From a virus, in IMG/VR virus record IMGVR_UViG_3300044796_000657, positions 124,001-188,000 of that record: DNA of 64,000 nucleotides. The stretch is one strand, 5' to 3'. Shown in pieces: positions 6,422 through 26,968 of this stretch; positions within the stretch are counted from its first letter, which is position 1; every line of letters begins with the position of its first letter. The notes below the pieces were generated by a model. That model worked only from the letters and a program-made list of their open reading frames with translations, had not been told where the DNA came from and ran no database searches. A program made the translations under genes and the position numbers.

Positions 6422-6449
6422 AGTATAGCAGAATTACAAATTATGTCAA
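6422..6449 (-). promoter_or_regulatory. Sigma-70-type promoter
   Basis: Minus strand: perfect -35 TTGACA (6444-6449), 16-bp spacer, -10 TATACT (6422-6427). The -35 box overlaps the stop region of the HNH gene; the promoter serves the gene at 5871-6320. Confidence 0.75.
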
Positions 6450-6977
6450 GTGATTTTTTGCTACTGCTTTACAAAAATCAATTAAGCTCTCTTCTGAAAA
6501 AATATTCTTCGCACAATTGGCCATATAAGAAACGATTTGAATATTATCGGGCGTATAGCCTTTGCTGGAATCACGACGATCCAAACTCGCACGATCCGAT
6601 CTTAATCCTTCGTTTGCTCTGGTTGGAAGATGGAATAATTCCCATCCTGTATACGGACATTTGCCACCTTGTTTATCCCATACATTTTTCAAATCTTGAA
6701 GTGTAATAGTAAAATCTCTATTTCTATCTTCGGCATGTCGTCTAGCCGTTTTATGCAATATTCTAAAAGGACTATATTCATCCAATCTGTTGTTCGATTT
6801 TAAATAAGGAAGACCGTAATTTATATCTCTTGGTAAATTCATAGAATTGGAAATACCACAACAATGACGAGAACAGAATTGTTTTCTTTCTAAACGAATT
6901 GAACGATTGAATTCTGCACGGCATCTTTGAAACTCTTTACCGCACTTGTCGCAAATCACATTAACTTTTGTAGTCAT
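6441..6977 (-). CDS. HNH endonuclease, homing-type
   Basis: 178 aa. The N-terminus has a zinc-finger-like pair of CxxC motifs (CDKCGKEF at 9-16; CSRHCCG at 35-41). The C-terminal half has the layout of phage HNH enzymes that cut DNA: GGKCPYTG, then ASLDRRDSSKGYTPDNIQIV, then a conserved N. Such free-standing HNH genes often spread as homing elements. It lies directly beside the tmRNA gene (3' end at 7045), which could be its insertion target; that is inference only. Confidence 0.8.
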   Translation of the reverse strand: MTTKVNVICDKCGKEFQRCRAEFNRSIRLERKQFCSRHCCGISNSMNLPRDINYGLPYLKSNNRLDEYSPFRILHKTARRHAEDRNRDFTITLQDLKNVWDKQGGKCPYTGWELFHLPTRANEGLRSDRASLDRRDSSKGYTPDNIQIVSYMANCAKNIFSEESLIDFCKAVAKNHLT

Positions 6978-7044
6978 TAAATTCTAACACCTCCATACTG
7001 ATGAAGTTATCATAGTATGGAGGTGCAGAGATTTCAAGTGGAAT

Positions 7045-7411
7045 TGGAGGTGTCGAGAATCGAACTCGATTCCTATCGTTCAGCACTAAATTCTTCATTC
7101 ACGTGTGTCTTCAGCATGTTTTTGTTCGCTCACATGGCACATTACTGCGAAGCCATGTTACGCTAATGATCTTACCATTTAGTTAGCCGCTCTTCCAGAC
7201 CATAAGGTGAGCAGCGATCCTGATTTAACAACGGAACTTTCTCCCCTTCAGGCTAGAAGATCAGTTCCGGGCCATTAACCGAAGTTAGGCGGCCATGCGG
7301 AGCTCAGGCTCAACATTTAAAGTTTTTTCATGGAATTTTTACGTGGCCAACCATGAATCCACGACACGCAGAAACTTAACACTCAAACGTAGTCGATACC
7401 AGTTCACCCCC
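7045..7411 (-). ncRNA. ssrA: Transfer-messenger RNA (tmRNA)
   Basis: Full one-piece tmRNA of about 367 nt. The 5' end GGGGGTG pairs with the 3' acceptor strand CACCTCC (one G-U), followed by discriminator A; CCA is not encoded. The 5' conserved block TGGTATCGACT matches the tmRNA D-like region. The T-arm is perfect: TCGAG, loop TTCGATT, CTCGA. The tag frame ends ...GCC GCC TAA (stop at 7285-7287) and would encode roughly VEPELRMAA, possibly with one more residue before the Val; the resume codon is not certain. GC-rich stem segments downstream fit the pseudoknots. tmRNA with SmpB rescues stalled ribosomes and tags the product for ClpXP; no smpB is seen in this window. Confidence 0.9.
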
Positions 7412-11938: not shown

Positions 11939-13012
11939 TTATCTACACGAATTTAGGAACTTTACCCCTTCTTGCGTAATCATTTGGCGATTGTTTACCG
12001 ACACGTAAGCCGGATGCCGTTCCGAACTTAACAAAGTCGGCAATACGTCATTTTCCCATTCTTCTACCGCAATACCAATTTGAGAACACAGGTTTTTCTT
12101 GGAATAGCCCTTATCTTTGGCTTCGTTCAAGATACGCAAAGCCTTCATGCCAATAGAAGAAACCCCCCCTTCTTGAATGCCTTCACGTTTTCGCACGATT
12201 TCCACTGCTTCATTCAAAGTTAACTTGCTTCGGCGATTACGGGTGAGGTTCACAGTTTCGGCAAACTGTATGGCTTCCCGTGGAACTGGCAACAAACCCG
12301 CAATTTTATCGCAAACTTCCTTCGGAAACACCCCGAAATTCAACTTAATAATTTGCGACACTTCCGCCAAAGTATGCCGTTCCAACTGGATAGCAAGGAA
12401 CCGAGTACGGAAAGCCGAGAGCAAATCTCCTCCGTTAGTAGTGCCAAGGATGAAGCAAATCTCCTTACAATTCACTTCTTTCCCTTCCAATATCAGAATG
12501 CCGTCTTTGGCTTCCGTGACTTTAAGTAAAGCGTCTTGTAAGGCGCCAGAAAGGCGGTGAGCCTCATCAATGAAAACGATGGTTGGCGGGGCTTCGTACA
12601 ATTCAATGTCGCCCCGTGTCCCTATCGGATCAAAAACCAAATCCTTGGCGGCATAGGTATTGGCCAGAAGCTCAAAGAGTTGTTCAGTGTTTTTGAGGCT
12701 AGGGCCGTCTGTGCCAACATACGGCAACCGCATCAGATTGGCAAACATTTTGGCGAGAGTAGTTTTGCCGCATGATGGCGGGCCTTGTAGGCGAATTCGT
12801 TTCTGGCAAGAACGGTTGGTGACCTCTTGACCGTTGAATTCGCCCGGATTAATATTGAGGGAATTCCACGCAATATCAATGATCGTTTCCAAGGCGTCGG
12901 AATTTCCTACATATCCGTAAAATGGGCACTCTGGGTCTTTGGGATCGCAAAGTTTCTTCATTTCTGGCTCGGAAAGAACCCGAAATAACAGATGTTCTTG
13001 TTCTGCCATCAT
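11939..13012 (-). CDS. RuvB-like AAA+ ATPase
   Basis: 357 aa, AAA+ with RuvB-like order: Walker A GPPSCGKT near residue 77, Walker B IVFIDEAHR near 145, sensor 1 LGTTNGGDLL near 190, an arginine pair FRTRF following, and a C-terminal winged-helix-like domain (LLSSERHPAYVSV...ITQEGVKFL). RuvB drives branch migration of Holliday junctions; a phage copy could act in recombination-dependent replication. Start at MMAEQE with SD GGAGG; the upstream seven codons are rejected. It follows promoter 13060-13088 and intergenic element copy 6. Confidence 0.82.
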   Translation of the reverse strand: MMAEQEHLLFRVLSEPEMKKLCDPKDPECPFYGYVGNSDALETIIDIAWNSLNINPGEFNGQEVTNRSCQKRIRLQGPPSCGKTTLAKMFANLMRLPYVGTDGPSLKNTEQLFELLANTYAAKDLVFDPIGTRGDIELYEAPPTIVFIDEAHRLSGALQDALLKVTEAKDGILILEGKEVNCKEICFILGTTNGGDLLSAFRTRFLAIQLERHTLAEVSQIIKLNFGVFPKEVCDKIAGLLPVPREAIQFAETVNLTRNRRSKLTLNEAVEIVRKREGIQEGGVSSIGMKALRILNEAKDKGYSKKNLCSQIGIAVEEWENDVLPTLLSSERHPAYVSVNNRQMITQEGVKFLNSCR

Positions 13013-13036
13013 AACGCCCTCCAGTTCTACCAAGGG

Positions 13037-13568: not shown

Positions 13569-15569
13569 ATGTCACATGAAAAAGATGTCCGTGAATTGAA
13601 GTTAAATATTGTTGCAGGTGAAGGTCTAGCCGATTTGCGAACCAAAGATGTCGGGCAAGATGGCATGAAATTGCACAAGAAGAAACATCATCACCACAAC
13701 GACAGTTCGGGAAACTCTTCCGGATCTGGCGACTCGTCAAATTCGTCCGGCTCTGAAAACAATTCTTCGGAATCATCCGGTTCTGGTTCTGGGGATGCAA
13801 CTTCACAATCAAGCGGCTCTGCTGAAAGTGTTGCTTCAAGCGGAAACAGTCGATCAAATGACTCATCAGGTTCTTCTAATTCGGGTTCAGGTTCGGGGGA
13901 ATCTCATTCTGGTTCAGGGGACTCCAGCGGAAGCAACGCCTCTAAATCATCAGGTTCGGAATCCATCACATCTTCGCAATCGTCTGGGTCAAGTGGATCG
14001 TCCGGCGTATCTTTCTCCGAAGAAAGTTCAGCGGGTCGTGATAACCGCAACAAGGATACAGGGGAAGAGCATAAAGGAAGAATGATGAAAAACCGCAATG
14101 TCATCAACGAAGTTGTTGATGGAAAGGTTTTTCATGAATTCAAGGATTATGTGGCGGAAGTTAACAATCAAACTGCCGATGTAAAAAGTAACCCACATCA
14201 AAATGTAGGTGGAAATATCCCTACACCTAAAAAGTTCCACAAAGCAGCTATGAAAGCCAAAATGGGCAAAGTGGCGATGATGGGTGCCGCTATGATGGGC
14301 AACAATTGTGTTAAACAACAAGGGTTGATTGGTCGCTTATCTACTCACGTTCAAACCCGTGAAAAAGTTGGTGAAAAATCTCCTTCATTACAAGATGCAA
14401 AAGAATTGCTTTTGATCCTCCAAGTTCGTTATGCCAATAATTGTCAAGGCAATGGCATGATGATGAATAAAGGATCGTCATCGTCGTCAGATTCAGGCAT
14501 GAGCAACATGATGATGACGGGGAAAAAAGGCATGAATGGCATGATGATGATGGGTGGCGGCGGGCCGGGTGGTCCAGGGCCGGGGCCGGGCATGAGTGGA
14601 GGGCCGGGTATGGGTGGCGGGGGTCAAAGCAATCCTAATATGATGAAGATGAAGAAAAAAATGATGATGACGCCAATGATGAAAATGATGACGCCTGCGA
14701 TGATGACGAAAATGAAACAAACGATGATGATGATGACGAAAATGAAATCTAAGAAGATGAAATCTCAAAAGAAATCAAAATCAAAGAATTCAAAACCAAA
14801 ATCTCAAAAATCTAAATCACAATCGAAACCGAAATCAGGTGGTGGGCCGGGCGGGCCGGGCAGTCACGGTATGGGGCCAAAAATCACAGGAAGTAGCAGT
14901 AGCGACAACTCCTCATTTGTGCCGTTTTCTAGTTCAGCACAATCAAGTGCAAATGGCAGCTTGAGAGCAAGACTACAAAAGCGAAAAAACAACAGATACC
15001 ATGTATCAACCAGCAAAAGAGCAATTATCGCCGATGAGTTAAAACTTAACAAAGAAGAAGAATTGCCGATTTTTGATGTGGCAGGTGATAAGCCCAACAC
15101 ACCTAGCTTGAGCTGGTGGTGGCCAAGTCCTCCTGAAATCATTAACAGAATGTTCACAATGGCAAATCTCAAAGAAGGCGAAACCGTCTTTGACTTAGGC
15201 TGTGGTGATGGTCGTATTCCGGTTCAAGCAGCAACCAAATGGGGCTGCACAGGTGTTGGAGTTGACTTTGATGAAAACCTTTGCCGTCAAGCGAAAAAGC
15301 GGGCCATTAGATTGAAAGTTGAAGATAAGGTTGAAATCAGACACGGCGATGCATTAAAAGTTAATGATATTGAACGTGCTGATGTTGTGACGCTATATAT
15401 TCTTGATAGAGGCATGAGACTTATCAAACCTATTCTTCAATCCAAGTTGAAGAAGGGTGCGAGAATTGTTTCTCACAACTATAAATTCAAAAATTGGGAG
15501 CCAGTCAAAGAAGTGGTTGCCACTGATAAAGAAGGTCATAAGCACTGGATTTATCTCTACGTGGTTTAA
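13569..15569 (+). CDS. Lys/Met-rich tail protein fused to SAM methyltransferase
   Basis: 666 aa in five parts. A His/Lys patch and a long Ser/Gly-rich acidic linker (about 36-155); a conserved block with GGNIPTPKK and MKAKMGK (215-245); a Gly/Met and Lys/Ser/Met low-complexity region (300-430); NGSLRARLQKR (462-472); then a complete class I methyltransferase (505-666). The last has WWWPSPPEI, motif I DLGCGDGR (542-549), GVGVDFD, the acidic end of strand 3 (HGDAL), and a C-terminal IVSHNYKFKNW...HWIYLYVV. This domain matches DOT1-like/FAM173-type enzymes, a group with known protein-lysine methyltransferases. Acting on its own or its neighbour's lysines is inference. SD is AGGAAAG. Confidence 0.8.
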   Translation: MSHEKDVRELKLNIVAGEGLADLRTKDVGQDGMKLHKKKHHHHNDSSGNSSGSGDSSNSSGSENNSSESSGSGSGDATSQSSGSAESVASSGNSRSNDSSGSSNSGSGSGESHSGSGDSSGSNASKSSGSESITSSQSSGSSGSSGVSFSEESSAGRDNRNKDTGEEHKGRMMKNRNVINEVVDGKVFHEFKDYVAEVNNQTADVKSNPHQNVGGNIPTPKKFHKAAMKAKMGKVAMMGAAMMGNNCVKQQGLIGRLSTHVQTREKVGEKSPSLQDAKELLLILQVRYANNCQGNGMMMNKGSSSSSDSGMSNMMMTGKKGMNGMMMMGGGGPGGPGPGPGMSGGPGMGGGGQSNPNMMKMKKKMMMTPMMKMMTPAMMTKMKQTMMMMTKMKSKKMKSQKKSKSKNSKPKSQKSKSQSKPKSGGGPGGPGSHGMGPKITGSSSSDNSSFVPFSSSAQSSANGSLRARLQKRKNNRYHVSTSKRAIIADELKLNKEEELPIFDVAGDKPNTPSLSWWWPSPPEIINRMFTMANLKEGETVFDLGCGDGRIPVQAATKWGCTGVGVDFDENLCRQAKKRAIRLKVEDKVEIRHGDALKVNDIERADVVTLYILDRGMRLIKPILQSKLKKGARIVSHNYKFKNWEPVKEVVATDKEGHKHWIYLYVV

Positions 15570-15583
15570 CCCAAAGGAAACAT

Positions 15584-16507
15584 ATGTCAAATAACGAAAA
15601 TGATCTGATCCCGCAAAACGCTGAACATGTCGGCCAGAATATTCCTACGCCCAAAAAGGAGAAAATGACCACCAAAAAAGGCAAGATGAAGGCCAAGATG
15701 GGAAAGGGTAAAAAAGCTCACATGAAAGCCAAGATGGGAAAAGGAAAGAAAGCTCACATGATGAGCAAAGCCCATATGGCTAAGATGGCTAAGAAAAAGA
15801 TGAAGGCCAAAATGCAGAAGCCTCAAATGAAGGCTAAGATGAAGATGAAGGCCAAAATGAAAAAGGCCAAGATGATGATGACGGGTATGACGGGCGGCAT
15901 GTCGATGGCCCAAATGAAATCAAAAATGAAGTCTCAGATGAAGTCAAAGATGAAATCATCTAAGACTCCAAAAATGAAATCATCGAAACAACCAAAGTCA
16001 ATGGGCCAATCACAACAAAGTGGGCCGGGTCCAGGACCAGGTCCAGGGCCGGGGCCGGGTGGTGGCGGATCGGGTAACCAATCTAAGAAATCTAAATCGA
16101 AATCAAAGATGATGGGATCATCGGCTTCCGGTATGATGTCTAAGATGAAAAATTCGAAGTCAACGAAATCTAAGCCTAAATCACAATCACAATCACAATC
16201 TAAGCCACAATCTACAAAATCCCAACCGGACTTCTGTAAGAATACAAGATTGAAATTGGATACTTTACTTCAAAGAATTGATAGACTGCAAGTTTTAGGC
16301 GATACTGAAAACCTAACTTGGAGCAAACGACTATACAGAATCATGGAAGATCGTTATGCACAATTCTGCAAGTCCAGTAGTAGTGCTTCAACAGGTAGTT
16401 TAACTAGTAGTGTAATTAGCAGTGCGGTCAGTAGTGCGGCTGGCAGCAGTAGTCAAGCCAATGGTAGCTTGAGAGCTAGATTGAAAAAACGTTGGAAAAA
16501 TCGTTAA
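15584..16507 (+). CDS. Lys/Met-rich low-complexity protein
   Basis: 307 aa, mostly Lys, Met, Ala, Gly, Ser: repeated KAKMGKGKKAHM and MKAKM units (residues 20-110), Lys/Ser-rich blocks, and a Gly/Pro insert. It shares with the upstream fusion protein the N-terminal GQNIPTPKK, a central helical block ending in RYAQFC (RYANNC in the partner), and the C-terminal ANGSLRARLKKR. It lacks the methyltransferase. Composition resembles H1-like basic tails and would bind nucleic acid strongly. 14 nt after the upstream stop, SD AAGGAAA: co-transcribed. Possibly a virion or genome-condensing protein. Confidence 0.75.
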   Translation: MSNNENDLIPQNAEHVGQNIPTPKKEKMTTKKGKMKAKMGKGKKAHMKAKMGKGKKAHMMSKAHMAKMAKKKMKAKMQKPQMKAKMKMKAKMKKAKMMMTGMTGGMSMAQMKSKMKSQMKSKMKSSKTPKMKSSKQPKSMGQSQQSGPGPGPGPGPGPGGGGSGNQSKKSKSKSKMMGSSASGMMSKMKNSKSTKSKPKSQSQSQSKPQSTKSQPDFCKNTRLKLDTLLQRIDRLQVLGDTENLTWSKRLYRIMEDRYAQFCKSSSSASTGSLTSSVISSAVSSAAGSSSQANGSLRARLKKRWKNR

Positions 16508-18341: not shown

Positions 18342-18836
18342 CTACACGATTTTTGGAAGCCATTTGGATAGATTGGCATCTTGCTCTCTGACAAGATTTG
18401 CCAAATCGGTTCGATACTCCTGTAGTTTAACAAGAATTTCTTTATTATCCAATGCCAAAATTTGTAAAGCCAATAGCGCCGCATTTTCGCCAGCATCCAC
18501 ACCAACCGTTGCGACAGGCACACCCTTGGGCATTTGACTTGTACTCAACAAACTGTCTAGTCCCATTAGCGATGTACTCAACGGTACACCGATCACAGGC
18601 TTGAGAGTGTGAGAAGCCACAACGCCCGCTAAGTGGGCTGCTTTGCCCGCTGCGCAAACGTACACACGGCATCCTTTGACTTCACAATGCTTGACATACT
18701 CCAAAAGATCAACAGGGCTGCGATGCGCACTCAATATGTGAGCATCGAATTCAACTCCAAATCTCTTGAAGATTTCGCAAATTTCTTTCACCGTAGCGAA
18801 ATCGGCATTACTTCCCGACAGGACTGTCACTAACAT
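18342..18836 (-). CDS. purE: PurE, N5-carboxyaminoimidazole ribonucleotide mutase
   Basis: 164 aa, the usual PurE length, from the ATG at 18836. Conserved blocks: VTVLSGSNADFATV (phosphate loop), ILSAHRSP with the essential His-Arg, AAGKAAHLAGVVASH, and MPKGVPVATVGVDAGENAALLA. It interconverts N5-CAIR and CAIR in purine synthesis. An 80-residue upstream extension in the same frame overlaps another real gene and is not part of the protein. The start overlaps the end of the upstream gene by 29 nt. With PRPP synthetase and FolD it would boost purine supply. Confidence 0.9.
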   Translation of the reverse strand: MLVTVLSGSNADFATVKEICEIFKRFGVEFDAHILSAHRSPVDLLEYVKHCEVKGCRVYVCAAGKAAHLAGVVASHTLKPVIGVPLSTSLMGLDSLLSTSQMPKGVPVATVGVDAGENAALLALQILALDNKEILVKLQEYRTDLANLVREQDANLSKWLPKIV

Positions 18837-19176
18837 TAATTTGCTCTTTTCTAAATGAACCAATGTATCGTTGCATATGATCTTGAACCGCTTTGGCGTC
18901 TTCTGGATCTTTCCAAGTCCACAAAATACGATGATCGGTAGCGCCGCCAAGGGGCTTTGCCGAAGTACTTGAATAAGTTCGGGCTTGCTGTATGAAATCC
19001 ACATTTTGTTGCGGATCATACCCAATGGTGATGATGAGCTTGCCATTAATTCTGTCAACTGTTTTTTGCTCGGCATCCTGTGTGAATGTCACAGGCAAAC
19101 CAACGCAAACTAACACGGTAAAAAGGATACCGAGTAGAAAGCCGATAAAAGCACAGTACATCTTACCAGTGTTCAT
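18808..19176 (-). CDS. Membrane-anchored hypothetical protein
   Basis: 122 aa from the ATG at 19176. One N-terminal membrane segment (CAFIGFLLGILFTVLVCVGL, residues 8-27) followed by a soluble domain that looks alpha/beta (LIITIGYDPQQNVDFIQQA, ILWTWKDPEDAKAVQDH). No signal peptidase site is evident, so a type II anchor is likely. Overlaps the previous stop (ATGA) and the purE start. Confidence 0.65.
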   Translation of the reverse strand: MNTGKMYCAFIGFLLGILFTVLVCVGLPVTFTQDAEQKTVDRINGKLIITIGYDPQQNVDFIQQARTYSSTSAKPLGGATDHRILWTWKDPEDAKAVQDHMQRYIGSFRKEQINVSDSPVGK

Positions 19177-19663: not shown

Positions 19664-20004
19664 CCGCAGTCTTTGAATTTGGCCGTACTTCTATTGAAAA
19701 TATATCCTATCGCTTCGGTGTCGTCGGCGAGTTGGATTTTGTCTCGACGGTAAAGATCAGGCACAGCTTCCAACCAATCCAAATTCATGAGAATGTCGCT
19801 GGAAGACACCTCAAACAATTCCCCTTTAATGGCTCGCCCATCTTTTTCATCAAAGGTAATGCAGGGATAACTCCCGCAGTCATACAATTTGTACAACGGT
19901 TTGGTCGTTGCTTCACTGAGGAACTTACTATCACCCAAAATGCGGTGATTGTGGTATCCTCTTTTGAGCGTACCATAAACGAAAACCTTTACCGGCTCAA
20001 ACAT
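19630..20004 (-). CDS. Gamma-glutamylcyclotransferase-fold protein
   Basis: 124 aa with the family's opening VFVYGTLKRGYHNHR (residues 7-21), a central IKGELFEV strand, and DWLEAVPDLYRR. The expected catalytic acidic residue after IKGELFEV is not clear: it is followed by SSSDILMNLDWLEAV, where Asp or Glu could serve. GGCT enzymes release 5-oxoproline from glutamyl dipeptides or amines; some phage members act on other substrates. A second GGCT-like gene is at 37130. Confidence 0.75.
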   Translation of the reverse strand: MFEPVKVFVYGTLKRGYHNHRILGDSKFLSEATTKPLYKLYDCGSYPCITFDEKDGRAIKGELFEVSSSDILMNLDWLEAVPDLYRRDKIQLADDTEAIGYIFNRSTAKFKDCGTEWPRRATGG

Positions 20005-20774
20005 GGCATAACCTCTTGGATTTTATGAGCATTAAGACGCAATTCTTTCATGATCTCCGCTTGCCGACTTCGTTGAACACCATAAACTTCTGCCACTTGC
20101 TGTATCGTTAACTTGTCATCGAATCGCTTCAAGATGGCCTGTTGTTCTTTTTCTGTAATTTCCAAATCATCCATACACTTTCGCATTGCGGCGAAGTTTT
20201 TCGGAAATTCATATTCATCATCCCAACTAACCAACAAATCTTCCGGCATATCATCCGGATTTCTGAATTCTAATTGTTGTGTAGCATTGATTCGATTAGT
20301 TTGACCACACTTCCTGAAGTAGTCTTTATACTGACGAAACAAACAACTCATGGCAAAGGTGCTAAATTTGAATTTGTTGTTAATGTCAAATTTATCAATT
20401 GCCCTTATCAACGCCAATGCTCCGTGTTGAGCCAGATCATCAAAAAGTGAAAACGCATCAGGCTTCGCTTTTGCCCGGACTTTGGACATGTTGACCAAAA
20501 TCCGATAATTGCTCAAAAAGATAACATCACGGACAGCCAGTGCCACTCCGTACCGTTTGCTGTATTTCAAATAGTTGAATTTCCCAAACAGGAAAGTTTC
20601 TTGCTCTGGTGTTAACAATGGCGTTTTACAGAGGGAAGTGGTGCTGGTTCTCCGTGTTGAAACAATACGCTCTTGATCATAGTACCATTCAGGATACACT
20701 TCCCACTGACGACATAACTTGTCATCGTGAAAAGTTGCATGATCAATGTATTCTTCCCTCATGGCATGACCCAT
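19989..20774 (-). CDS. Sigma-70 family RNA polymerase sigma factor
   Basis: 261 aa. Region 2 is clear (about residues 95-180): ILVNMSKVRAKAKPDAFSLFDDLAQHGALALIRAIDKFD followed by FKFSTFAMSCLFRQYKDYFRK, the -10 recognition helix. A short region 4 follows (LEITEKEQQAILKRF...TIQQVAEVYGVQRSRQAEIM), a helix-turn-helix that would contact -35 DNA. Regions 1.1 and most of 3 are absent, so it resembles phage or group-3/4 sigmas. It may direct late transcription; candidate promoters with a TATATAA box and no -35 occur in this window. The start overlaps the upstream stop (TAATG). Confidence 0.82.
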   Translation of the reverse strand: MGHAMREEYIDHATFHDDKLCRQWEVYPEWYYDQERIVSTRRTSTTSLCKTPLLTPEQETFLFGKFNYLKYSKRYGVALAVRDVIFLSNYRILVNMSKVRAKAKPDAFSLFDDLAQHGALALIRAIDKFDINNKFKFSTFAMSCLFRQYKDYFRKCGQTNRINATQQLEFRNPDDMPEDLLVSWDDEYEFPKNFAAMRKCMDDLEITEKEQQAILKRFDDKLTIQQVAEVYGVQRSRQAEIMKELRLNAHKIQEVMPCLSR

Positions 20775-21223
20775 TAGGTTGTTATAGGTTTAACACTCGC
20801 CGCAATCTGCGCATCGACCAATTCCAGAGTGATGTTGGCCTTGCGAAGCATAATAGCCGCAGGATCAGTTGCACTCATCAAAATCGCACGCAGAAGGTGC
20901 TGACAGGCAATGAACTTGGCAGGAAGGCCAATATCAATTGCCATACAAATTAACCTTCCCACGCTTTGACTGTAAGGAACACCTACCGAATGCGTAGAGT
21001 ATTTGCCTTTGCCTAGCGTTTGGCGAATATCATCTTGCATGGTTTTCGTGTTAACGCCCAGCGCCTTGAGGACGGAGGCACCAACATTTTGATCTTCGGC
21101 CAAAATGCCATAAAGCACATGAAGCCGAGTCACCAAAGGATCGCCGTTCTCTTTAGCGAAATCGTTGGCCTTCGACAATGCTTTTCTCGCACGATCAGTC
21201 ACTTTGTCGTAAAACGCATGCAT
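20774..21223 (-). CDS. Stand-alone Clp N-domain protein
   Basis: 149 aa matching the double Clp-N repeat of ClpA/ClpC: FYDKVTDRARKALSKANDFAKEN and LVTRLHVLYGILAEDQNVGASVLKALGV in repeat 1, then a second repeat with SQSVGRLICMAIDIGLPAKF and CQHLLRAILMSATDPAAIMLR. There is no AAA+ module. Such domains bind adaptors and substrates of Clp proteases, or act as ClpS-type adaptors. It lies close to clpX, implying control of host or phage proteolysis (inference). Confidence 0.82.
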   Translation of the reverse strand: MHAFYDKVTDRARKALSKANDFAKENGDPLVTRLHVLYGILAEDQNVGASVLKALGVNTKTMQDDIRQTLGKGKYSTHSVGVPYSQSVGRLICMAIDIGLPAKFIACQHLLRAILMSATDPAAIMLRKANITLELVDAQIAASVKPITT

Positions 21224-21270
21224 CTCGTATTCCCTTTGATGAGTATAACATAATTGATTCCAAGAATCAA

Positions 21271-21621
21271 TTACAATTTGCCAATTTCACGGATTTTTTC
21301 CAACCACGGTTCATCATCTTCCAACAAGTGAAAAACACTGCCGTTTTCAAATGTCATATGCTTTAACTTTTCGGTTCCATCAATCCAGCACTTACCCAAA
21401 GATGTATGCTCAAACATAGTGCCGATGGGTCGTTGACTGATTTCTTTAACCGTGTAAACACGCCATTCGCCACTATTGGCTTTGCCTTTGTTGATTTCGA
21501 TCATTAAAGCCTGAATGAATTCATCAGCGTAATCTTCTCTCAAGTCGAGACAACCTCTATGTCCTGCCTCGTAAACCGTCAAGACAATATCACGCAATTG
21601 ATTTAATTTAAGTCCTGCCAT
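21271..21621 (-). CDS. Hypothetical protein, paralogue family A member 1
   Basis: 116 aa from MAGLKLNQLRDIV at 21621, 1 nt after the clpX stop. The C-terminal half has WRVYTVKEISQRPIGTMFEH, then GKCWID, then MTFENGSVFHLLEDDEPW. The same layout recurs in the genes at 30307 and 31503, which together form a local paralogous family of unknown role. A 64-residue upstream frame overlaps clpX and is rejected. Confidence 0.7.
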   Translation of the reverse strand: MAGLKLNQLRDIVLTVYEAGHRGCLDLREDYADEFIQALMIEINKGKANSGEWRVYTVKEISQRPIGTMFEHTSLGKCWIDGTEKLKHMTFENGSVFHLLEDDEPWLEKIREIGKL

Positions 21622-21622
21622 G

Positions 21623-22852
21623 TTAGGCTGCTTCCTTTCCAAACAGGGACTCTGTCCCTTGTACGATGTTTTGAGTGATAATGTACTTCGCCTGCGGTTG
21701 CTCCGGCAAGGTGAACATAATGTTAAGCATAACCCGTTCCAAAACCGCTCTAAGCCCACGGGCGCCTGTTTCTTGTTCAAGAGCCATCCGAACCATTTCC
21801 CGAAGTGCGTCATCGGTAAACTCCAATTCGCAACCCTCCATCTTGAAGAGTTTTTGATACTGCTTCACTAAGGAGTTATGTGGTTCCTGCAGGACTCTCA
21901 ATAATTCGTCTTCGCTCAACGTGAGCAATGGCGTAATAACTGGCAAACGGCCAATCAATTCGGGAATGAGGCCGTAGTGAACGAGGTCTTCGGCAACCAC
22001 CTTTTCAATCAATTCATTGCCAGTTAACTCTTTTTTGCCAGCGAAGCCAAATCCGATAGTCGTCTTGCCTGTCCGCTTAGCAATAATCTCTTTCAGACCG
22101 ACGAACGTTCCCCCAACAATAAAGAGGATGTTCGTGGTATCAATTTGAATGTATTTCTGTTCGGGGTGTTTGCGTCCCCCTTGCGCCGGGACATTACAAA
22201 TAGTCCCTTCCAACATTTTCAGCAATGATTGCTGCACACCTTCGCCTGATACGTCTCTGGTGATTGAGACATTGCCCGTTTTGCTGGCAACCTTGTCAAT
22301 TTCATCCACAAAAATAATGCCACGTTCGGCCAATGCCACATTCCAATTGGATGCCTGCAGCAATTTGAGAAGCAGATTTTCCACATCCTCACCGACATAA
22401 CCCGCTTCTGTTAACGTTGTAGCATCACCAATGGCGAAAGGCACCTTCAACATTCTGGCAAGTGTACGGGCCAACAGAGTCTTGCCGGAACCCGTTGAAC
22501 CGATCATGAGAATGTTGCTTTTCTCGATTTCGGTAGGGTCTTGCTCATCAAACATACCAGATTGAAGTCGCTTGTAGTGATTGTAAACGCCAACCGCCAA
22601 AACCTTTTTCGCCATCGATTGACCGATAACGAACTTTTCCAAAAACTCAACCATCTTGCGGGGGGCTGGCAATTGGACTTGTTCAGGATATTTGTTAGCT
22701 ACCGCAGCAGCTTTAGCATCTTCGCTGAGATAATTAGCTAGTTTGAAAGCACAACCCTTACAAATTACTCCCGCCATGCCGTTAAGCATCTCACCGCATT
22801 CGGGAGCCGGTGTACCACAAAAGCAACACTTGATGATTTTTTTGCGAGGCAT
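21623..22852 (-). CDS. clpX: ATP-dependent unfoldase ClpX
   Basis: 409 aa, complete ClpX. N-terminal zinc domain with Cys9/Cys12 and Cys31/Cys34; Walker A GSTGSGKT near 118-125; Walker [11 protein letters not shown] near 177-186; sensor and arginine-finger region [12 protein letters not shown]; and the C-terminal AAA small domain. The ClpP-docking loop TIGFGF is retained, so it could pair with host ClpP. ClpX recognises ssrA-tagged proteins, and this phage also encodes a tmRNA, suggesting a matched tagging and degradation pair. No clpP is seen here. Confidence 0.93.
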
Positions 22853-22904: not shown

Positions 22905-23654
22905 TCAAGACCATGTCAATTTACGACCGGTCAATTTAGATAATTTAACAATTTGCGGCGTGTAAAAATGTGCCACACGCTTGCGATCTTCTGGATCTAG
23001 TTTCATATCATCATAAGCCTTGTTGTATTTCTTGAGGACTTTTTCATCGTAGTCTGGCGGTACAAAAGAATCGTCCACACCAACCCACTTAAAAACTTCC
23101 CGCAAGAAACCCAATGGATCAGACACCATATCATCGTAGAACAGTACTTTTATCCGATCTGGTTCAAAGTATCGATACCAATTTTCTAAAAGATCACCGT
23201 ACATCCCCTTGGACTTTATAGAATAAGGTGAGAGTTCACCCTTGGGGTGATTGCCATCAAAAGCATCCATAAAACTCACCTCTGGTTCAATTTTCTTGTA
23301 CCATAAGTGATCCTTATAATGGCTGAATGCCCTATCAATAGGGTTTCGCAACAGTACAAACAACTTGACGTTCGGGAAATAGGTCTTTATGAGCGGTGGA
23401 GCATATGGGCAAGAAAAATAGTTTGGCGTGAATTCGCCTACGCATTCGTGTTTAAGTCTTCCGAAACACTTCAAATATCTTTTGAGGGGAATGTTAAGTC
23501 TGTCGAAGAAGTGAAATTCCTTAATTCTTTTGCCACGTGGATTCTTGGGTGTGCCGATACTTGGATGCTTCCGCATTTGTTTCCAAGTCCAAGTTGTACC
23601 GCCCTTCATTACGCCAATGCCATAAAAGTCGGGGGAACGATACTTTTTCTTCAT
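22905..23654 (-). CDS. PAPS-dependent sulfotransferase
   Basis: 249 aa. The 5'-phosphosulfate binding loop is seen as GVMKGGTTWTWKQM (residues 14-27), and the 3'-phosphate binding block as LFVLLRNPIDRAFSHYKDH (98-116). These are the signature regions of heparan-sulfate-type and bacterial sulfotransferases. It would move sulfate from PAPS to a hydroxyl or amine, possibly on a surface glycan or virion sugar; the acceptor is unknown. Phage sulfotransferases are uncommon. It sits between clpX and a lysine-rich virion-like gene. Confidence 0.85.
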   Translation of the reverse strand: MKKKYRSPDFYGIGVMKGGTTWTWKQMRKHPSIGTPKNPRGKRIKEFHFFDRLNIPLKRYLKCFGRLKHECVGEFTPNYFSCPYAPPLIKTYFPNVKLFVLLRNPIDRAFSHYKDHLWYKKIEPEVSFMDAFDGNHPKGELSPYSIKSKGMYGDLLENWYRYFEPDRIKVLFYDDMVSDPLGFLREVFKWVGVDDSFVPPDYDEKVLKKYNKAYDDMKLDPEDRKRVAHFYTPQIVKLSKLTGRKLTWS

Positions 23655-23747: not shown

Positions 23748-24656
23748 TTAGTCTTTGCTGATGTCGCTTGCCCCACCCTGAGCCTTGAACGTTTGGGTAA
23801 TCGATCCCCACAAACGAGCAACACCCAAAGTGCCGCTGACTTCATAAGTACCATCAGTACCAGTCAAGCGGAAAAGTGAAACCAACCGAATATCGTTTGA
23901 ATCGCCAGCATTCGTGCCACGGTCATGTAAGATCGTCCAATTTTGAGGACGTTTGAAGCTGTCAGTTGAAGGCCCGTTGACACCAATTACACCGTAAAGC
24001 AATTCTTTGTCTTGACTTGTCGTGGCAGTCATACCAGAAGTTGCGAATACAGCAGCTACCGAATTATAAGCAGCGGCAGTCTTATCGGCAGGGGTATCTT
24101 TTTCAACGTTCTTGAATTCATCGCCCATAATCACACGGCGAGCAGAAGCCGCATGGGTCACAGTCACAATGGCGTTTTTAGCAAGGGCGTTAACACCGGA
24201 CGTAGCAAACAAAGTCAATACATAGCCGCTATTGAAGGGGACTTCCGATAATTTGACGTAAGTATTACCCAAAGAGTCAGCACAACTCGTTGTACCGCTA
24301 TTTGAGGACTTGTAAGCCAAGAAAGCAATGACGATTAAAAAGTCAGTTGAATTATCGTTATGTGGGGAAGTCGCAACAGTCAAAGTTGTGGTCGTTTGCT
24401 CAGTCAAACTTGTGACGATATTATGTCCAACACTTCGCATGTATTTAACAGGGTTTTTATGAACGTGCTTACCACGAACGCCTTCTTGCAGGTCATTCAT
24501 GCGGCCTTTCATCATACGGCCTTTCATTTTACCCTTTTTCATACCCATGTGAGCTTTCTTGCCCTTGGCTTTCATTTTGCCCTTTTTGGCTTTTTTCATA
24601 TTTTGACCGTGATCTTTGTTTTGACCAGCTACATCCTGATTAGTTTCAATGCTCAT
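23748..24656 (-). CDS. Lys/Met-rich N-tail with beta-sandwich virion-like domain
   Basis: 302 aa. Residues 1-60 are lysine-rich (KKGKMKAKGKKAHMGMKKGK), closely resembling the tails of the two proteins at 13569-16507. Residues 80-302 look like a beta-sandwich domain: TTTTLTVATSP, SLGNTYVKLSEVPFNSGY, LFATSGVNALAKNAIVTVTH. This arrangement occurs in phage and bacterial surface or decoration proteins. A capsid-binding or DNA-contacting role is inferred. A TATATAAG box stands 25 nt upstream. Confidence 0.65.
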   Translation of the reverse strand: MSIETNQDVAGQNKDHGQNMKKAKKGKMKAKGKKAHMGMKKGKMKGRMMKGRMNDLQEGVRGKHVHKNPVKYMRSVGHNIVTSLTEQTTTTLTVATSPHNDNSTDFLIVIAFLAYKSSNSGTTSCADSLGNTYVKLSEVPFNSGYVLTLFATSGVNALAKNAIVTVTHAASARRVIMGDEFKNVEKDTPADKTAAAYNSVAAVFATSGMTATTSQDKELLYGVIGVNGPSTDSFKRPQNWTILHDRGTNAGDSNDIRLVSLFRLTGTDGTYEVSGTLGVARLWGSITQTFKAQGGASDISKD

Positions 24657-25625: not shown

Positions 25626-26651
25626 TCAGTTTCCATTGACAATAAGATCACTGATTGATTCATTTTGGTGAATACGGGTAATGGCTTCGGCAAATAAACG
25701 AGTCGTACTAATAACTCGCAATTTGTTTTGAAGCAATGGCTCCGTCACACGAAAAGGCTCAATACAGTCCGATACGATCACTCGTTCGATTCGTTTATCG
25801 GACATTTTTTCGTTAGCTTTACCAACGAAAAGTCCGTGAGTAGCAATAGTGGCATAAATAGACTTGGCTTGTCTTGATTTCTCTTTTGGAAAACACGCTT
25901 CCGTTGCTTCCAAATTCGTACTGCCGCCGGAAATCATGTCGTCATAAATGAGGACATTACGACCGACAACATCGCCCATAATGCCATGACCAGTAATGGA
26001 TCGTCCAACGTGAACTTTATCCATACAAGCCAAGCCGATTTCCGTTTGGAAAGCATCACTGACCATCTTCCGAAATTTTCTGGCTCGATTTAGACCGGAC
26101 GCATCGGGCGACAAAACCGTTAAACTTGAAGGGTCAACCTTGTTTCTTCGTACGGATTCAATGATATAATTGGCGAATAAATGGTTCGCCTCAAGAAGAT
26201 CGCACGGAAATGGGAATGCGTTCTGAATGGCAGTAGGACTATGAACGTCAATTGTCAAAATACGGTTAACCCAAAGGCTTTCAAATGCCCTTGCTAGGTA
26301 TTTGGTAGTGATTGGTGCCCGGCTACTCGTCTTGCGATCTTGACGAGCGTACGGATAATACGGTGCCACGATAGTAATTCTTGCAGCAGAGGCATCCCGC
26401 AAAGCACCGCACAAAATCATAGTTTTCATGATTTTGTCGTTAATGCTTTCTTTTTGATCCGAGTACATGGATGAAATGATAAAAACATCGCACCCACGGA
26501 CATTCTCTTTGATGCCCGCTTGTGGCGCAGCATAACACTCGCCGTCTTCAAAACGATTTTCATCGAGTTCACTCAATGTCGTTTTCAAATAACCGGCTAC
26601 TTCTGCGCCGAATTTTCTCGAACTTGATGGTGCGAATATTTTCAATTTCAT
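25626..26651 (-). CDS. prs: Ribose-phosphate pyrophosphokinase
   Basis: 341 aa. The core order is conserved: FEDGECYA, CDVFIISSMY, YYPYARQDRKTSSRAPIT (ATP-binding region), then VHSPTAIQNAF, LSPDASGLNRARKF, and the PRPP loop LIYDDMISGGSTNLEA. It makes PRPP from ribose-5-phosphate and ATP for purine, pyrimidine and NAD synthesis. A TKxxSRAP variant replaces the usual KxRPREPI pattern, a common divergence in phage enzymes. The start at MKLKIFAPSSSRKF follows SD GAGGA; two codons upstream is an ATG overlapping the previous stop. It pairs with the OPRT fusion at 60356 for pyrimidines. Confidence 0.88.
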   Translation of the reverse strand: MKLKIFAPSSSRKFGAEVAGYLKTTLSELDENRFEDGECYAAPQAGIKENVRGCDVFIISSMYSDQKESINDKIMKTMILCGALRDASAARITIVAPYYPYARQDRKTSSRAPITTKYLARAFESLWVNRILTIDVHSPTAIQNAFPFPCDLLEANHLFANYIIESVRRNKVDPSSLTVLSPDASGLNRARKFRKMVSDAFQTEIGLACMDKVHVGRSITGHGIMGDVVGRNVLIYDDMISGGSTNLEATEACFPKEKSRQAKSIYATIATHGLFVGKANEKMSDKRIERVIVSDCIEPFRVTEPLLQNKLRVISTTRLFAEAITRIHQNESISDLIVNGN

Positions 26652-26653
26652 GA

Positions 26654-26968
26654 TCATTCCTCGATAAGAATTAACGTTTCATGGGTCTTGGTCTTTTGTT
26701 TCTTGGCTTGCTCTTTCGCAGTGAAAGACTTAATGACTTCGGACATAGGATACATTTTGACTATTTCGCCTTTAGATACGTAATAGCCACGATTGGTAGG
26801 AGAATGACCACTCATATCATGCAACCCCGGAAATACATCAGCAAACTCAATACCGATATTTTCTATATCGGATTTACTGGAGCGAATATCTTTGATGTTG
26901 CCACACTTGCCGTAGCAAATATGACCGGCACGAATAACACAAACTAAATCACCACGTTCAAATGACAT
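26654..26968 (-). CDS. SH3-like/KOW-like small protein
   Basis: 104 aa, with an N-terminal beta-barrel-like motif FERGDLVCVIRAGHICYGKCGNI similar to KOW-type or SH3-like domains that bind RNA or protein; another such gene is 41845-42135. The C-terminus is lysine-rich and charged. The start follows a good SD (AGGAGAG). Function unknown. Confidence 0.55.
   Translation of the reverse strand: MSFERGDLVCVIRAGHICYGKCGNIKDIRSSKSDIENIGIEFADVFPGLHDMSGHSPTNRGYYVSKGEIVKMYPMSEVIKSFTAKEQAKKQKTKTHETLILIEE

Follow-up and report, generated by a model that had tools for sequence, protein, structure and literature searches.

Free-standing homing endonucleases are copied into the gene they cut when the cut is repaired. 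One of them, F-CphI, is encoded beside cyanophage psbA and targets an intron site. The carriage of tmRNA genes by phages has so far been proposed to serve host control or recycling. The tmRNA gene is known to harbor group I introns in its TpsiC loop, and LAGLIDADG genes lie inside about 4% of them (PMC11915505); the word HNH is absent from that paper. A tmRNA is reported for 2.3% of phages generally (PMC9004378). Phage tmRNA is already known, as is SmpB in huge phages (PMC7162821).

The DNA studied here, referred to as the window, is a stretch of 64,000 nucleotides (G000:C1:124001-188000) within a 430,229-bp huge-phage record. No terminal repeat was found at the ends of this record, and the absence of smpB and clpP described below is therefore absence from the 430,229-bp record only. 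The source is a huge virus of bacteria that encodes a ribosome-rescue RNA as well as the protein-unfolding motor ClpX. The reading that we consider the more probable is that the window holds two separate things: a homing-type HNH endonuclease gene on a working tmRNA, and a genuine ClpX that would act with host ClpP, accompanied by an orphan Clp_N domain protein. The surrounding sequence encodes metabolic genes for an AIR carboxylase of the PurE type (window positions 18342-19076), a sulfotransferase (22905-23654), and a PRPP synthetase (25626-26657). Long repeats rich in Met/Lys and in Ser/Gly, such as MKAKMGKGKKAHMK, characterize the proteins encoded at 13569-16507 and 23748-24656, and an AAA+ protein weakly resembling RuvB and clamp loaders is encoded at 11939-13033.

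The tmRNA (ssrA) gene is of the one-piece type and lies at 7045-7411 on the minus strand, as identified by ARAGORN, Rfam, and direct reading. Its match to RF00023 (104.1 bits; gathering score, 47) spans model positions 1 to 374, that is, the full model. Direct reading revealed an acceptor stem GGGGGUG/CACCUCC with G3.U70, the alanine identity pair, and a continuous, intact TpsiC arm that is not interrupted by a group I intron; CCA is absent from the gene. The tag reading frame (7285-7314, minus strand; ARAGORN coding part 98-127) is open, reads VEPELRMAA followed by a stop, and gives the tag (A)VEPELRMAA. Charged with alanine and acting with SmpB, which is probably supplied by the host, this RNA would free stalled ribosomes and append (A)VEPELRMAA to the unfinished protein. 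The MAA ending at first seemed to be lineage specific, since it was met in G000, G001, W01, and L135. ARAGORN then confirmed MAA tags native to bacteria, among them AEYPMAMAA and GNTQYAMAA, in 13 of 20 bacterial loci, so no special phage tag is evident, and the idea of a "phage" tag was dropped. Assignment of a host from the tag was also tried and was not possible.

Immediately downstream, 67 nt after the tmRNA 3' end, starts a gene for a 178-amino-acid free-standing, homing-type HNH (beta-beta-alpha-metal) endonuclease (6441-6977, minus strand), assigned by PHROG and an AlphaFold model. It matched PHROG 3322 (endonuclease; 4e-26) and PHROG 1035 (2e-19), and no Pfam family. The AlphaFold model (pLDDT 88) gave the HNH nuclease PacI as its best structural match (Z 7.2), followed by further HNH domains with some unrelated entries in between; these matches involve the C-terminal part (residues 64 to 178) only. 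The spacer between the two genes (6978-7044, minus strand) folds into a strong hairpin (-29.9 kcal/mol, z -6.8), and GGAGGUG in the 3' arm of the predicted hairpin is likely the ribosome-binding site of the HNH gene.

Homologs of this HNH gene directly follow the tmRNA in G001 and G028 as well. A wider search yielded 80 loci from viruses and 26 from bacteria or archaea; in most of these, ARAGORN and Rfam located a tmRNA next to the HNH gene. For four near-identical copies (L213, L221, L231, and L233) the Rfam tmRNA call of a sister locus was reused, which left the cluster counts unchanged. Collapsing at 90% identity and removal of loci cut by contig ends left 66 nonredundant loci. The HNH gene adjoins the tmRNA 3' end in 45 of these, which include unrelated phages and cyanobacterial chromosomes; this linkage of 68% may be overstated because the search was seeded with tmRNA-adjacent members. 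The tmRNA lies upstream on the same strand in 30 loci (with a gap of 44 to 94 nt in 27), the HNH gene is convergent at the tmRNA 3' end in 8, a tmRNA with a group I intron is present in 6, and 1 locus has a permuted tmRNA. The remaining relatives adjoin a group I intron only (9 loci), a tRNA (4 loci), or nothing recognized (8 loci, a few of which were scanned by ARAGORN only). The same tmRNA-HNH pair was present in four cyanobacterial genome contigs and one Neomarinimicrobiota metagenome-assembled genome. HNH genes are numerous in phages, and the relatives beside tRNAs, introns, or nothing recognized would suit an ordinary HNH gene that came to lie next to the tmRNA by chance. Such a chance placement is nevertheless very improbable given the recurrence of the arrangement at the tmRNA 3' end, across a narrow spacer, in unrelated phage contigs and in bacterial chromosomes.

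The phylogeny of the HNH proteins likewise connects the lineage with tmRNA. The tmRNA-linked state was clustered on the tree and required 8 changes, compared to a mean of 16.6 after shuffling, with none of 500 shuffles as low. The entries nearest to the window HNH were L157 and L158, both with tmRNA introns. Base-by-base inspection of L168 showed that its intron splits the TpsiC loop between GGGGTTC and GACTCCCC; the end of the tmRNA, a terminator, and then the HNH gene follow. The tags of HNH-linked tmRNAs vary widely, and the HNH gene therefore follows the tmRNA gene rather than one allele of it. The tmRNAs of W01 and G004 have no such HNH gene, which shows that a tmRNA can be present without it. 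No clean empty-site pair for the HNH gene was found among the loci gathered.

Several loci from this collection had unusual features. An RNA of 137 nt in L089 (1501-1637; LR756511.1, 2250-2386) is tmRNA-like (RF00023, 50.4 bits) and comprises barely more than the tRNA-like domain; the phage also has a full tmRNA, and the short RNA is similar in this respect to the tag-less form of phage DS6A (PMC4131195). In L124 (4709-5236; G034) the tmRNA match is unusually long (528 nt, 78.8 bits), and an insertion is possible. The HNH-adjoining tmRNA of L159 (1592-1947) has, by eye, a noncanonical T-loop, GTGGG AGCATAG CCCAC, possibly an altered target site. Of three HNH relatives from crAss-like phages that were read, two directly adjoin a group I intron (L151, 3009-3278; L152, 3024-3283), and no tmRNA was found in the crAss-like relatives.

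The window gene thus lies beside its presumed target, in a linkage that recurs across unrelated genomes, as is the case for free-standing homing endonucleases. From this linkage we infer a lineage of such enzymes specialized on tmRNA genes. The most likely target of the endonuclease is a tmRNA gene that has no HNH gene, cut close to its conserved 3' tRNA-like part, and repair would then copy the HNH gene, and perhaps adjoining tmRNA sequence, into the cut gene; the phage is proposed to keep the tmRNA because it works. We are evenly divided on a broader proposal, namely, that a lineage specialized on the tmRNA 3' end is passed between phages as well as into bacterial chromosomes, works together with the TpsiC-loop group I introns, and is one reason why phages carry and exchange tmRNAs with differing tags. 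No published account of an HNH gene beside tmRNA was found in searches of open-access literature on tmRNA/ssrA and endonucleases. If a tmRNA-specific homing endonuclease family exists, it would provide a direct, testable answer to the question of why phages carry tmRNA: the tmRNA gene would offer a favorable site for homing, and by selfish spread tmRNA genes, whatever their tag, could reach many phages, to be put to use later. The tmRNA-HNH linkage also offers a handle for annotating phage tmRNAs.

The ClpX gene lies 14 kb from the tmRNA gene, at 21623-22852 on the minus strand, and encodes a protein of 409 amino acids. The protein passed both ClpX equivalog cutoffs, with 560.8 bits against the NCBIfam ClpX model (cutoff, 359) and 540.7 bits against TIGR00382 (cutoff, 370.75). 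Alignment with one Acinetobacter ClpX and six phage ClpX proteins revealed that the C4 zinc finger, Walker A and B, GYVG, pore-2, RKH, IGF, and sensor-2 motifs are all kept. One reference contig, CAKLQH020000005, stems from a phage collection and resembles a piece of a bacterial chromosome. The IGF loop of ClpX is known for docking to ClpP; in the window it consists of I266, G267, and F268, encoded at 22049-22057 (minus strand). The corresponding position reads IGF in G001 and W01, MGF in G004, and LGF in G028 and phage G, and the G028 protein is without the RKH loop. With regard to gene neighborhoods, the window has a PRPP synthetase gene near clpX in common with W01 and G001, FolD additionally with W01, and a gene for a 124-amino-acid protein adjoining clpX with W01 and G004. 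None of W01, G001, and G004 has a tmRNA near clpX.

The window was previously reported to lack smpB and clpP, and this holds for the entire 430,229-bp record. Neither SmpB (PF01668) nor ClpP (PF00574) was found when the record was searched with profiles that detected the positive controls, and blastp and phmmer searches with phage ClpP and SmpB proteins gave nothing convincing. Phage ClpP, which would make up a phage-encoded ClpXP protease, and phage SmpB, which would make up a phage-encoded trans-translation system, are thus both absent from the record; host SmpB would therefore be required for tagging, and host ClpP for degradation. Weak ClpP-like proteins of G001 and G028 were considered as parts of a phage ClpXP and rejected, as their best PHROG scores were to head-maturation families. 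Use of host ClpP by the phage ClpX is plausible because the IGF docking loop and the canonical loops that read the ssrA tag are kept; the phage protein would then dock on host ClpP and degrade tagged or other substrates. Alternatively, the main function of the phage ClpX might be that of an unfoldase or assembly chaperone during replication or virion assembly, independently of both ClpP and tmRNA. The lack of a phage clpP would fit such a function, and roles in virion assembly or replication have been proposed by jumbo-phage authors (PMC7824862, PMC6102473). Retention of the ClpP-docking IGF loop in the window, G001, and W01 argues against this alternative, which we regard as quite improbable. 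A phage that encodes a ClpX with a canonical docking loop but no ClpP offers a clear opportunity to test the use of host ClpP.

The free-standing Clp_N protein (149 amino acids; 20774-21223, minus strand) matched Pfam Clp_N (PF02861) with 4e-13 and 49.7 bits (cutoff, 20.7). It consists of a double repeat of the ClpC/ClpB type without an AAA+ module, and its closest solved relatives are ClpC N-domains. Judged by sequence, it is a ClpC/ClpB-type domain rather than a part of ClpX. Standalone relatives are also present in G001 and W01, but the window protein is only 24% identical even to such phage proteins; a viral-contig search with the window protein alone returned no relatives. Two glutamates of ClpC, which we take to be its phospho-arginine binders, correspond to L34 and Q108 in the window protein, whereas glutamate is kept in W01 and G001; the ClpC reference came from the structure-match alignment, with a few linker residues filled in. 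With both glutamates replaced, the window protein lacks this ClpC-type residue pair and is predicted to be a poor binder of phospho-arginine. It might act as a decoy or adaptor for host ClpC, ClpA, or ClpB. Its gene overlaps by 1 nt a gene for a sigma-70 family factor (19989-20774, minus strand; Pfam Sigma70_r2, PHROG 351, and TIGR02937 above cutoff). Between clpX and the Clp_N gene lies a small open reading frame (21271-21813, minus strand) whose real start is likely internal, giving about 116 amino acids, and which belongs to no family, with no match in Pfam or PHROG.

An earlier note on this DNA had described a matched proteolysis set at 20774-22852. The presence of a tag RNA, a ClpX with an IGF loop, and a Clp_N protein in the window was borne out by ARAGORN and Rfam, NCBIfam, the alignment, and Pfam. 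Within that interval lie only ClpX and the Clp_N protein, and the tmRNA is 14 kb away. In a matched module, the phage tmRNA would tag proteins and the phage ClpX would read the tag and feed host ClpP with the help of the Clp_N protein, so that the phage redirects ClpP. Each of the three parts is there and looks intact and functional, the tag-reading loops of ClpX are canonical, and standalone Clp_N proteins recur in G001 and W01. Moreover, of 15 records of at least 190 kb that bear ClpX, 10 gave a tmRNA call, a count that takes in two permuted forms from ARAGORN and a G035 hit of low score matching G034; this exceeds the 2.3% reported for phages in general (PMC9004378), with genome size as a confounder. 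Such genes are, however, abundant in huge genomes anyway. The parts are not clustered, the conserved neighbor of the tmRNA is the HNH gene, the Clp_N domain is not of the ClpX type, and MAA tags are native to bacteria as well. Among 21 records searched, ClpX exceeded the cutoff in G000 only, and the 20 others, selected through HNH, are mostly fragments; many phage records, many of them fragmentary, have tmRNA with HNH and no detected ClpX. A matched module is therefore unlikely, and a co-evolved set is not supported; the tmRNA and the Clp genes may act in a common pathway without having been brought together as a unit. DnaE was tried as a clade marker and added little. Permuted two-piece tmRNAs are present in two huge-phage records that also have ClpX, with the tags ANDEVYALAA (L096, 1509-1922) and ANDELYALAA (L100, 1529-1856).

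Among described systems, chloroplast ClpT is a free-standing Clp_N protein, and mycobacterial ClpC2, of which one chain was among the solved-structure matches, likewise has a Clp_N domain without an AAA+ module; the window protein differs from both in being a phage protein. SPO1 Gp53 is likewise a phage protein that acts on a host Clp protease, but it is an adaptor-like protein of ClpCP that binds ClpC (PMC6873191), whereas the window phage encodes its own version of the N-domain. The combination of tmRNA and ClpX has been reported for Sinorhizobium phage AP-J-162 (PMC11242549) and is also present in Bacillus phage G and Prevotella Lak phage Lak-B2. By profile search, phage G and Lak-B2 have ClpP and Lak-B2 also has SmpB, whereas the record of the window has neither.

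For the HNH gene, the closest parallels are mobile elements of conserved genes. In the tmRNA genes with TpsiC introns (PMC11915505), as in the window, a mobile element is found at the 3' tRNA-like part, and relatives of the window HNH gene adjoin such introns in six nonredundant loci; the window tmRNA, in contrast, is without an intron and is followed by a free-standing HNH gene. The arrangement is also like that of F-CphI, in which an endonuclease gene lies by an intron-less copy of a conserved gene that is interrupted by a group I intron in relatives. It differs from the F-CphI type in that the putative target is tmRNA and in that unrelated phages as well as cyanobacterial chromosomes are among the hosts.
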